Of a stretch of 64,000 nucleotides of DNA, positions 59,444 through 64,000 are shown one piece after another. Under the pieces are notes generated by a model. That model saw nothing but the letters and a program-made list of their open reading frames with translations, was not told the origin of the DNA and ran no database searches. Each line of letters starts with the position of its first letter. Within the stretch, counting starts at the first letter, position 1. This DNA is from Nitrospirota bacterium (lineage in GTDB: Bacteria; Nitrospirota; Thermodesulfovibrionia; Thermodesulfovibrionales; Dissulfurispiraceae). A program made the position numbers and the translations under genes. The DNA is taken from contig WSNO01000001.1 in the NCBI GenBank assembly GCA_009773415.1, forward strand, positions 1 to 64,000. The letters run 5' to 3'.

Positions 59444-61084
59444 ATGCAGCGCTTAAAAACATGGAGTCTGCTCATAATGGTTGTTGTTGCTGTTTCGCTG
59501 ATCGGCAGTGCGGCAATGGCAAAGAAAGAGACAGGCCTGGCACCGAAAGCGGTCAAGTCAGAGGACTGTTTTCAGTGTCATGATGAGATCAAGCAATTTG
59601 TAAAGAAAGGCAAGCATGCCAAGCTAAGCTGCATAACCTGCCACGAAATGCTCGACAAACACATGCAGGATCCGGGCAAGAAGCCGGTCACCAAGATGGA
59701 TCATGCAACATGCGGAAAATGCCATAAAGAACAGTATGAATCGTATGTCGAGGTGAACCACGAATCAAAGGCCAAGGTCGAAAAGTCGAGCTTCAAGAGC
59801 AGGTCGCCGCTGTTCGACAAACTGATGGCTCCGCATGGGTTTACGAAGGAACACGGGGAGCCGCGCAGTCATGTCTTTATGCTTGTTGACCAGTTCATCG
59901 TAGACCGCGCTTTTGGCGGCCGATTCCAGCTCAAAGACTGGACAAAGATTAGCGACGCGAAAAGCATCGAAAAGTCCGCATGGAGCGTTCTGTTCGACAA
60001 GGAGCCTAATACGTCGGATCAGAAGATATTCATTCCCCAGACTGCACTGGCGGCCAATCCGGTTTGCTATCAGTGTAAAACCGCCGACATGATTCTCGAC
60101 TGGAAGTATATGGGGGACAATGACCCGCGCGCAAAGTGGGACCGAACTTCAAAAGTTGTTGATTTCGCCAGAGCAATGCATCATCCCGCGAACTGTTTTA
60201 CCTGTCATGATCCTCACTCGGCGCAGCCCCGGGTAGTGCGCGATGCGCTGATTGAGGCTGTCGTTGATCGCGGCGAAGGAACGTATCCGTACGACAAGGA
60301 AAAATCAAAAAAAATCACGATGCAGAAAGTTTCATTTCGCGACTTCCGCTCTATCGGCATCCTGAACAAGAAGGATTCCAACCTGATGTGCGCACAGTGC
60401 CACGTTGAGTACAACTGCAATCCGGGACACAATCCAGCGACCGGTGAGGCCATCGGCATGGCTGACCGCCGCACGAACCTTATTCAGTGGGTCAACGTCT
60501 TTGATTACAACAAGGCCATGACCGAAAAGTATCAGTTCAAGGATTTCAGGCATGCCGTTACCGGCGCATCCCTGAACAAGCTTCAGCATCCGGAAGTGGA
60601 AACATTCTGGATGTCCAAGCATGAGCGTGCCGGCGTGGAGTGCAAGGACTGTCATATGCCGAAGGTAAAGAAAGGCAGCAAGAGCTACACCTGGCACGGA
60701 CAAAAGAGTTCGCGCTATATGCTGAAAGACACATGCACAAAGTGCCATACAGGCTGGACAGCCAAAGACGCTGAGTATCAGGTCGACGCAATCCAGAACT
60801 ATGTCAAGGGGAAGTTGACCAAGGCTGAATTCTGGCTCGGTCAGCTGATAGACACCTTCGCAGAGGCAAAAAAGGCGGGAGTATCGGAAGATGTTCTCAG
60901 GGACGTCCGCAAGATGCACGACCAAGCGCATATATACTGGGAGTGGTGGACCGCGGAGAATTCTGACGGGTTCCATAACCCCGAAGCAGCCCGAGAGTCG
61001 CTTACCCGCTCCATCGATCTTTCACAGAAGGGCATCAAGATGCTGAACGATGCCATGGCTCCAAAGAAAACAGCAGCAAAGTAG
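59444..61084 (+). CDS. Octaheme cytochrome c nitrite reductase (ONR/NrfA-like) with CxxCK heme
   Basis: The 546-residue periplasmic protein has a signal peptide (cleavage near GSAAMA) and eight heme motifs: CFQCH (42), CITCH (63), CGKCH (90), CYQCK (208), CFTCH (251), CAQCH (316), CKDCH (400) and CTKCH (431). The lysine-ligated fourth heme is the NrfA catalytic site. KLQHPEVETF holds the catalytic Gln381-His382, and Tyr323 is in HVEYNC. Three hemes before the NrfA-like five-heme core is the Thioalkalivibrio ONR layout. There the Tyr-x-Cys pair is covalently linked, and Y323-N-C325 matches it. It should reduce nitrite to ammonium, possibly also hydroxylamine or sulfite. gggaggtg precedes the start. 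Confidence 0.9.
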   Translation: MQRLKTWSLLIMVVVAVSLIGSAAMAKKETGLAPKAVKSEDCFQCHDEIKQFVKKGKHAKLSCITCHEMLDKHMQDPGKKPVTKMDHATCGKCHKEQYESYVEVNHESKAKVEKSSFKSRSPLFDKLMAPHGFTKEHGEPRSHVFMLVDQFIVDRAFGGRFQLKDWTKISDAKSIEKSAWSVLFDKEPNTSDQKIFIPQTALAANPVCYQCKTADMILDWKYMGDNDPRAKWDRTSKVVDFARAMHHPANCFTCHDPHSAQPRVVRDALIEAVVDRGEGTYPYDKEKSKKITMQKVSFRDFRSIGILNKKDSNLMCAQCHVEYNCNPGHNPATGEAIGMADRRTNLIQWVNVFDYNKAMTEKYQFKDFRHAVTGASLNKLQHPEVETFWMSKHERAGVECKDCHMPKVKKGSKSYTWHGQKSSRYMLKDTCTKCHTGWTAKDAEYQVDAIQNYVKGKLTKAEFWLGQLIDTFAEAKKAGVSEDVLRDVRKMHDQAHIYWEWWTAENSDGFHNPEAARESLTRSIDLSQKGIKMLNDAMAPKKTAAK

Positions 61085-61091
61085 CCGCATC

Positions 61092-61114
61092 GGGGCGGTG
61101 CAATGCACCGCCCC
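61092..61114. repeat. Perfect 10-bp inverted repeat after the octaheme cytochrome gene
   Basis: ggggcggtgc (61092-61101), loop aat, gcaccgcccc (61105-61114), 7 bp past the stop. No T-run follows, so it may protect the mRNA end or be a dispersed G+C palindrome rather than a terminator. Confidence 0.6.
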
Positions 61115-61148
61115 ACCCTGAAATATGCAGCTTACGAGACGTTAGCTC

Positions 61149-61577
61149 TTGAATTTTCGGCTGCTTTGGCGGCTGCATCGGCAATCGGGCTTGAATTCCC
61201 GGTTCCGGAAAAGGATCAGGCTGCCGCAGGCGCAGATAAGCACAGCGGCATTCGAAAGCACCGTCGGTCTTGAAGCCGGCATCATCGGACTTATTCTCAT
61301 CGGTGAATTTTTTATTCTTCGCCGATTCTGGTGCAAGTATATCTGTGCCGTAGGCACAACTCTATGCTTCTTCCGATGCTCCAAAACGCTCAAGGTCGTT
61401 TTCAGCGAAGACGCAGACCGGAAATGCATCCAGTGCGGTGCATGCATTAAGGCGTGCCAGTTAGACCTTAAGCCGACAAAAGGAAAAATCTACCCGATGT
61501 GCCATAACTGCGGAGACTGCATCGCTGCGTGTGAGATGTCTACAAAGGACAAAAATCCGCTGCGTTTTCGGTTCTGA
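61149..61577 (+). pseudogene. Truncated NapH-like membrane ferredoxin
   Basis: The readable part starts TVGLEAGIIGLILIGEFFIL, a membrane helix, then RRFWCKYICAVG (NapH/RdxA-type cysteine motif, with Ala where Pro is usual: CxxxCP). Two [4Fe-4S] sites follow (CIQCGACIKACQ; CHNCGDCIAACE). Full-length relatives of about 250-300 residues have three or four more helices before this point. Here an in-frame stop (61143-61145) and only a TTG start (61149) precede about 35 unlike residues, so the N-terminal half is gone. It probably once passed quinol electrons to the octaheme cytochrome encoded upstream. A short functional protein is possible but unlikely. Confidence 0.6.
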
Positions 61578-61630: not shown

Positions 61631-62134
61631 TTACTTTCTGAATCCTTTTACCGAAGCGCAGGTCGGCCAGCCCGCCTGTTTGCCGTATTCCTGGCAAAGA
61701 ACGGCAAGAAACTCTTCCATTGCATTAGACGAAATCGATGCCGACAGCGGTATACTGTCCTGCACCCTGCATGCACTGAAAATACTCGTGACGAGCCGCG
61801 CAGGACCGGCTGCCGCCACTTCACGAACAAGATCTTCCGCGGCATTGTCGATGAACAGCAACTGCCGGTACCAGTCGCCGGATTTGGGGACAAGAATATC
61901 GCACGGATTTCCCTTCACATTCTTCGTTTGCGCGCCGCTTTCATGCAACTGCTGCCGCATGCGCAAATCGCTCAGCTGCAGACCACGCATTGCCGGATTT
62001 GAAGCCAGCCCGTGGCGGCCACGTGTAATGGGAAGAAACTGCGACAGGGAAACGCCGGAGCAATAAAGCCATGAAGCGTCGACCTCACTGACTATAAAAT
62101 ACATGAACCTATTCATGTACTTGAATGTATTCAT
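61631..62134 (-). CDS. Hypothetical protein, unknown family
   Basis: A 167-residue soluble protein without signal peptide or recognisable motif. The N-terminus is MNTFKYMNRFMYFIVSEVDA, then TRGRHGLASNPAMRGLQLSD, KGNPCDILVPKSGDWYRQLL and a C-terminal FLAVLCQEYGKQAGWP. agggaggttct precedes ATG 62134, supporting translation. It is the last gene of the minus-strand run HK-RR-YbaN and may be regulated with it. I do not recognise the family. Confidence 0.55.
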   Translation of the reverse strand: MNTFKYMNRFMYFIVSEVDASWLYCSGVSLSQFLPITRGRHGLASNPAMRGLQLSDLRMRQQLHESGAQTKNVKGNPCDILVPKSGDWYRQLLFIDNAAEDLVREVAAAGPARLVTSIFSACRVQDSIPLSASISSNAMEEFLAVLCQEYGKQAGWPTCASVKGFRK

Positions 62135-62585: not shown

Positions 62586-63266
62586 TCAGTCCCTGAAGCG
62601 GTATCCGACGCCCGGCACCGTCAGAATATATTCCGGGGAGGACGATTCTGATTCTATCTTCTGACGAAGGTGCTGGATATGCACATCAATGACACGGCTC
62701 CATGAGTAAATATCCGACTCTTTCCAGAGATGCTTCCGTATTTCATCGCGACTGACGACCTTTCCGCGGCGCATGATGAGAAGACTGAGCAGATCGAACT
62801 CCTTTGACGTAACGACTACACCTTTGTCCTTTACTAATACCTGCCGCCGCTCAAAGTCAACCGCGATATCGCCCACGTGAACACTCTGGGCAGGCGTCGG
62901 CTGCAGACGACGCAGACAGACCTTGATTCTGGCGATCAATTCAAGGGTTTCAAATGGCTTAACGATATAATCATCAGCCCCGCTCTCAAGGCCGATAACC
63001 TTGTCCGAGATCTTGTCCCGGGCAGTCAGCATGATTATCGGGAGCGACGGGTGCTGCTCGCGAATCTGCCGGCAGATTGTAAATCCATCTCCGTCAGGCA
63101 GCATGGCATCCAGCACCACGAGGTCCGGCGATATCTGAAGCTGCTTCTGACCGCCCTCCCACGTTTCAGCAGTCAGCACAGTGAACGAGTGAAGTTCGAG
63201 GTTTGCTTTCAGAACTTTCAGGATATCAGCGTCGTCATCTACCAGAAGAATGTGAGCGTTTTTCAT
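62586..63266 (-). CDS. OmpR/PhoB-family response regulator
   Basis: The 226-residue protein has a receiver domain (HILLVDDDADILKVLKANLE with the acidic pair; phospho-acceptor Asp in LVVLDAMLPDGDGF; Thr and Lys in IIMLTARDK and YIVKPFETLEL). A winged-helix DNA-binding domain (VTSKEFDLLSLLIMRRGKVV; VIDVHIQHLRQKIE) follows. Its ATG overlaps the stop of the histidine kinase gene, forming a coupled two-component system. The regulated genes are unknown; the adjacent ybaN and the octaheme cytochrome region are candidates. Confidence 0.95.
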   Translation of the reverse strand: MKNAHILLVDDDADILKVLKANLELHSFTVLTAETWEGGQKQLQISPDLVVLDAMLPDGDGFTICRQIREQHPSLPIIMLTARDKISDKVIGLESGADDYIVKPFETLELIARIKVCLRRLQPTPAQSVHVGDIAVDFERRQVLVKDKGVVVTSKEFDLLSLLIMRRGKVVSRDEIRKHLWKESDIYSWSRVIDVHIQHLRQKIESESSSPEYILTVPGVGYRFRD

Positions 63267-64000
63267 AACTCGTCTATTTTACAATAAACCTGTTTCCGTG
63301 GCAGGGTGAATGTGATGCAGGCACCTGCCGGCGTATTGGCAGATGCCCAGATTTTACCGCCATGCGCTTCGATGATGCTCTTGCAGACGGCCAGGCCGAG
63401 ACCGCTTCCTTCTTTCTCTCCGATACGATAAAAACGTTCAAAAATGCGGCCTCGTTCGCTTTCAGGAATTCCCGGCCCTTCATCGCAGACGCTCACGCGG
63501 AGAGAAGTCTCGTCCCTGACAACGCGGACAGCAATGCGTGCATTGTCGGGAGAAAACTTCATGGCATTGGAAAAAAGGTTTATCAGCACCTGCCGCATAC
63601 GATCCTCATCGGCACAGACCGGAATCGGCCCGACACTGGCAAGTTCCAGGCGGATACCCCGCGATTCAGCGTCCAGAGAAAAGTATGCAATGACCTCATC
63701 CATGAGTCCGCTCAGATCCGTTTCACAGAACCGCAGCTCTGATGCGCCGATTTCAATCCGCTCTATATCGAGCATATCGTTCACCATGCGAATAAGCCTG
63801 TCGGAATTTTTGCGTATGAGTTCGAAAAATACCATCAGATCATCAACGGAGGACGGCGATGCTGCCGGCGCTCCGGAGGACGCTTTCATGCGGATAGCTA
63901 TGTAATCCATCGCTCCCTTTATCGATGTGAGCGGCGTTCTCAACTCATGGGAAGCACGCGCGACGAAGTCAGACTTGCGCTGATTCGCTTCGTGAAGGAG
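63263..64000 (-). CDS. Sensor histidine kinase, C-terminal part (5' end outside window)
   Basis: The frame is open to the window edge. It contains the dimerisation/phospho-acceptor box ARASHELRTPLTSIKGA, the N-box NLFSNAMKFSPDN, G1 CDEGPGIPESERGRIFERFY and G2 GSGLGLAVCKSIIEAHGG, so a complete catalytic core. The sensor region lies outside the window. It is coupled by ATGA to the response regulator downstream. An internal TTG at 63943, inside the H-box, is not a real start. Confidence 0.95.
   Translation of the reverse strand, partial: LLHEANQRKSDFVARASHELRTPLTSIKGAMDYIAIRMKASSGAPAASPSSVDDLMVFFELIRKNSDRLIRMVNDMLDIERIEIGASELRFCETDLSGLMDEVIAYFSLDAESRGIRLELASVGPIPVCADEDRMRQVLINLFSNAMKFSPDNARIAVRVVRDETSLRVSVCDEGPGIPESERGRIFERFYRIGEKEGSGLGLAVCKSIIEAHGGKIWASANTPAGACITFTLPRKQVYCKIDEL

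Follow-up and report, generated by a model that had tools for sequence, protein, structure and literature searches.

A genuine octaheme nitrite reductase gene retained beside a probable nap deletion scar in a Nitrospirota bacterium

The octaheme cytochrome gene and its family

The window, the whole 64,000-nucleotide stretch of Nitrospirota DNA that we analysed, carries the gene onr on its forward strand (59444-61084), followed by a hairpin, relics of napA and napH, a 167-residue open reading frame, and genes for a response regulator and a histidine kinase. The onr reading frame is intact and encodes 546 residues, which the ORF, PDB and Pfam matches and a phylogenetic tree assign to the octaheme cytochrome c nitrite reductases (ONRs). 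Heme motifs start at residues 42, 63, 90, 208, 251, 316, 400, and 431 and run in the order three CxxCH, one CYQCK, and four CxxCH. The sequence-only reading had described eight hemes of which the fourth is lysine-ligated, and the seven CxxCH motifs and CYQCK of the translated ORF bear this out. The pattern is that reported for 106 ONRs in a screen of 1 million genomes (PMC10716430). Of 17 cysteines, 16 fall inside heme motifs and C325 is the sole non-heme cysteine. An apparent Sec-type signal peptide, judged by eye, occupies about residues 1-26.

The family was assigned by several comparisons. Searched against the PDB with phmmer, the protein matched the ONR of Thioalkalivibrio (2ot4) over residues 34-539 at E=3.1e-203, far beyond chance, and the stretch CAQCHVEYNCNPG is identical in the two proteins in that alignment. 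An octaheme nitrite reductase of a second type, 8rv0, matched over the full length at E=1.5e-159, whereas pentaheme NrfA chains gave E=1e-27 or weaker with partial coverage only. The Pfam match is Cytochrom_C552. With the two NCBIfam NrfA models the protein scored 94.7 and 76.1 bits, below their cut-offs of 595 and 692.5. An identity as NrfA was rejected on these scores together with the eight hemes and the presence of an N-terminal triheme part. In a tree of 93 ONRs, the window protein included, and 8 NrfAs, the two families separated at 100% SH-aLRT. The window protein fell inside the ONR clade, among Nitrospirota ONRs, while the Thioalkalivibrio ONRs occupy a separate branch. This was the phylogenetic check that had been proposed for the earlier assignment, and the assignment survived it.

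The catalytic residues are all in place. In the alignment, 93/93 ONRs share the Tyr, Gln, His, Lys, and Arg. These residues include K212, the lysine ligand of catalytic heme 4 within CYQCK (60065-60079, forward strand, like all residues given here), which is also present in 8/8 NrfAs, and R141 (59864-59866), the expected active-site arginine, which aligns with the Arg of the Thioalkalivibrio nitratireducens enzyme (TvONR or TvNiR; PDB 2ot4, 2zo5, and others). Q381-H382 (60584-60589) supplies the calcium-site Gln and the catalytic His, with R-H at this position in the 8 sampled NrfAs. Both this pair and Y323-N-C325 stand at the residue numbers first given for them. Similar to TvONR, the window ONR has eight hemes with CxxCK as the fourth, full-length similarity, the Arg/Tyr/Gln-His active site, and Tyr-Asn-Cys, but it belongs to the Nitrospirota cluster of the ONR tree and is without five linker residues after heme 2. 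The TaNiR-type ONR 8rv0, which we take to be the Trichlorobacter ammonificans protein, is likewise octaheme and matches over its full length, but is more distant in sequence than TvONR. A role in nitrate ammonification has been described for the octaheme enzyme of T. ammonificans (PMC12142623). Pentaheme NrfA shares the C-terminal five hemes, CxxCK, and the active-site Tyr and His with the window ONR, but has no N-terminal three hemes. With the ONR-clade placement and every catalytic residue tested present, the description of a TvONR-type octaheme enzyme holds, and, as far as its sequence can tell, onr encodes a genuine octaheme nitrite reductase, a further member of a known family and ordinary as an enzyme.

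The Tyr-x-Cys pair

Residues Y323-N324-C325 (60410-60418) align with those that are cross-linked in TvONR. The catalytic Tyr is followed two residues later by Cys in 92/93 ONRs and in 0/8 NrfAs, which have Ile (7) or Val (1) at that position, so that the lack of this Cys in NrfA, as first claimed, was seen in all eight sequences. The same counts tell against a second claim, that the pair is a special likeness to Thioalkalivibrio. Since nearly all ONRs carry Tyr-x-Cys and no sampled NrfA does, the pair marks the ONR family and not a Thioalkalivibrio tie; the window protein, moreover, lies outside the Thioalkalivibrio branch and groups with Nitrospirota, and a special link to Thioalkalivibrio was rejected on both grounds. 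A published review describes three main differences that set ONR apart from NrfA, the Tyr-Cys link among them (PMC12285233). By analogy with TvONR, Tyr323 is probably covalently bonded to Cys325. The bond is established to tune the tyrosine in TvONR and may do the same in the window ONR.

An intact ONR from a genome of the same family (G003; L146, 464-2245, reverse strand) sits on a long branch and has Gly in place of the cross-link Cys (VEYIGNPG). Judging by this substitution it is unable to form the Tyr-Cys bond, and as a natural Cys-less ONR it offers a way to test the purpose of the cross-link. With the window enzyme, a well-studied family gains a Nitrospirota member, and Tyr-x-Cys proves common to nearly all of this family.

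A nap scar downstream of onr

Directly after the onr stop codon lies a perfect 10-bp hairpin (61092-61114, forward strand; z = -3.3) that lacks a T run. A same-genus genome has a hairpin at the corresponding place, in which the outer stem GGGGCG/CGCCCC is kept and the inner (upper) stem is different.

The sequence-only reading described the onr product correctly, was borne out in part in its interpretation, and missed what follows the gene. A relic of napA (61125-61239, forward strand) has a start codon, a TAG at codon 7 (61143-61145), and a 1-nt deletion near 61152, past which out-of-frame homology continues up to NapA residue 39. Aligned with the start of napA from the same-genus genome G001, it scored 104, compared with 24 for the best of 1000 shuffles. 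Abutting it directly, with the junction at about 61233-61239, is the C-terminal part (~115 residues) of napH (61233-61577, forward strand). The 4Fe-4S motifs of NapH are kept and the N-terminal membrane part is gone; identity is 57% to residues 149-264 of NapH from a relative, G006, and about 70-71% to the G001 NapH. A NapH-like ORF at 61149-61577 was rejected as a real gene because it has no N-terminal membrane half and is fused to the out-of-frame napA start. The scar in total spans 61125-61577 and holds three separate lesions, the TAG, the frameshift, and the deletion. On its right side the deletion is anchored by orf167 (61631-62134, reverse strand), a 167-residue ORF of unknown function with an orthologue of 59% identity behind napH in G001, and on its left side by onr; both flanks are collinear with G001. 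What has dropped out between these collinear flanks is the gene for a NapM-like cytochrome, napG, the greater part of napA, and half of napH. An intact napA with napM, napG, and napH is thus absent beside onr in the window, where only the napA'-'napH relic is found.

The relatives show what would have stood here. In G001, ONR is followed by a 129-residue tetraheme cytochrome and then by napA, within which the contig (L061) ends; another contig of G001 (L161) carries napG-napH intact. The order ONR-tetraheme cytochrome-napA was seen in L061, L098, and L100. In G006 (L117), onr, the tetraheme cytochrome, napA, a napG-like gene, and napH are followed by a response regulator and a histidine kinase on the opposite strand. 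The small tetraheme cytochrome agrees in place and heme number with NapM of the napMADGH clusters of Thermosulfurimonas, a type of nitrate reductase cluster known from T. dismutans (PMC5276818), and a pathway of Nap plus ONR has been described in Desulfurivibrio (PMC12142623). The relatives hold the same kind of set, with ONR, NapM-like tetraheme cytochrome, NapA, NapG, and NapH, and in them ONR carries out the second step of nitrate-to-ammonium conversion by a nap-onr module, whereas in the window the nap genes are shrunk to the napA'-'napH scar. In G046 (L151, 470-6699, forward strand), nrfH-nrfA stands at the onr position ahead of the tetraheme cytochrome-napA-napG-napH set, which suggests that ONR and NrfHA are interchangeable within the nap module. 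In other relatives the partner of onr is NapA-like but enlarged, at about 1110 residues.

Further variation around onr was noted in these genomes. The ~1110-residue NapA-like proteins adjoining onr (L002, 8377-11712, forward strand, and similar genes in several relatives) have long insertions relative to NapA, and their genes are preceded by a gene for a one-heme 'choice-of-anchor V' protein. By eye only, norC- and norB-like genes (NO reductase) were seen downstream of onr in L084 (G054) and L096 (G043), and L095 (G004) has a second, truncated onr-like ORF of 315 residues beside a full-length onr.

Beyond orf167 the window contains genes for an OmpR/PhoB-type response regulator (62586-63266, reverse strand), which adjoins onr/nap in relatives, and for a histidine kinase with a Tll0287-like (CxxCH) sensor domain (63263-64000, reverse strand), which continues past the window to contig position 64909. 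The two are a candidate nitrate/nitrite-responsive pair. Such a pair also stands beside onr/nap in L002, L117, L118, L119, and L126, and partly in L150.

The host genome is a 2.46-Mb draft in 61 contigs, scored 100% complete with 0.24% contamination. Short-read assemblies may collapse or misjoin sequences, and for a 61-contig draft we considered whether the scar is an assembly artefact in an organism that retains full nitrate-to-ammonium respiration. We judge this very unlikely. An assembly error would not create the TAG stop and the 1-nt frameshift that the napA piece has besides the deletion, and the sequence on either side is collinear with G001. In a genome-wide search no copy of NapA or of a NapM-like cytochrome was found elsewhere, and the remaining NapH-like matches are distant (36-37%). 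The genome has a single PF02335 gene, onr itself, and three PF00384 genes, none of them NapA or NarG; searches of this draft found no other NapA, NarG, or NrfA. The most likely account of the sequence is that the nap genes were deleted in the host genome, leaving the napA'-'napH scar, and that onr was retained.

Function of an ONR without nap

We compared onr with its G001 orthologue over 331 shared codons. Residues are 91% identical and dN/dS is 0.044 (bootstrap 0.024-0.067), compared with 0.15 (0.06-0.26) for the napH remnant against G001; dS is above 1 and near saturation in both comparisons, which makes the values rough. Each dN/dS averages over the time before and after the nap deletion, so that little can be read from it about selection since the loss. 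Even so, onr keeps an open reading frame and all of its catalytic residues. These results bear on the possibility that onr is an unused leftover of the lost module, heading to decay. The partners of ONR in the module are lost, among them NapM, a possible electron donor, as such a leftover would have it. The intact frame and catalytic residues and the low dN/dS argue the other way, and G007, G009, G050, and G054 also have such an ONR without a standard-type NapA or NarG at the thresholds used, so that a nap-less ONR may be a recurring state. We therefore regard an unused leftover as unlikely.

The host has dsrA with an adjoining second dsr-like gene, and sat. The use of formate, predicted before the genome was searched, is upheld by an NADH-linked formate dehydrogenase and a formate-THF ligase encoded within the window; the genome also encodes a PhsA-like enzyme and an FdnG-like one whose gene contains an in-frame TGA. 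Most likely, the host is an anaerobe of the Nitrospirota that metabolises sulfur and has lost nitrate respiration.

The sequence-only reading had left the substrate as nitrite or sulfite. TvONR reduces sulfite in vitro (PMC8840924) and dissimilatory sulfur genes are present in the host, which would suit a periplasmic reductase of sulfite or another sulfur oxyanion. However, relatives hold the gene in nap operons, nrfHA replaces it in one genome, the host has its own DsrA, and no sulfur gene was seen adjoining onr. Physiologically a sulfite role is thus improbable, and we give a sulfur oxyanion in place of nitrite hardly any weight. The nap operon contexts point instead to nitrate-derived nitrite as the natural substrate of the ONR family in the host's order.

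From the family and its characterised members we infer how the enzyme may work. ONR would be periplasmic, and electrons from the quinone pool would reach it via a periplasmic cytochrome and run along the eight c-type hemes to lysine-ligated heme 4. There nitrite would be bound and reduced to ammonium with six electrons, with Arg141, Tyr323, and His382 as active-site residues, and hydroxylamine and NO are likely side substrates. No dedicated electron donor is encoded adjoining onr, the NapM-like cytochrome being lost, and candidate donors are two multiheme proteins elsewhere in the genome. Both have a NapC/NrfH-like N-terminus, one with 15 hemes (L113, 8747-10243, reverse strand) and one with 10 (L114, 5467-6315, reverse strand), and each is a possible donor to ONR.

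Having lost nap, the host depends on an external supply of nitrite, and ONR may serve to respire this nitrite or to protect against it. Nitrite inhibits dissimilatory sulfite reductases, which makes a protective role plausible. Collectively, the evidence makes us confident in a genuine ONR, retained when nap was deleted and most likely acting on outside nitrite, in respiration or protection, in an anaerobic sulfur-metabolising Nitrospirota bacterium. The more specific proposal, to which we give about even chances, is that a nitrate-to-ammonium module was cut to its nitrite half, a lone ONR that would be under selection, scavenge or respire nitrite, and receive its electrons from some periplasmic cytochrome different from NapM.

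The nap scar matters more than the enzyme itself. In its light the host probably reduces nitrite only and no longer ammonifies nitrate, and the scar has a bearing on marker-gene surveys in which onr is taken as a sign of nitrate ammonification. It documents directly, at the level of the genome, that an organism can lose nitrate respiration and keep its nitrite reductase.
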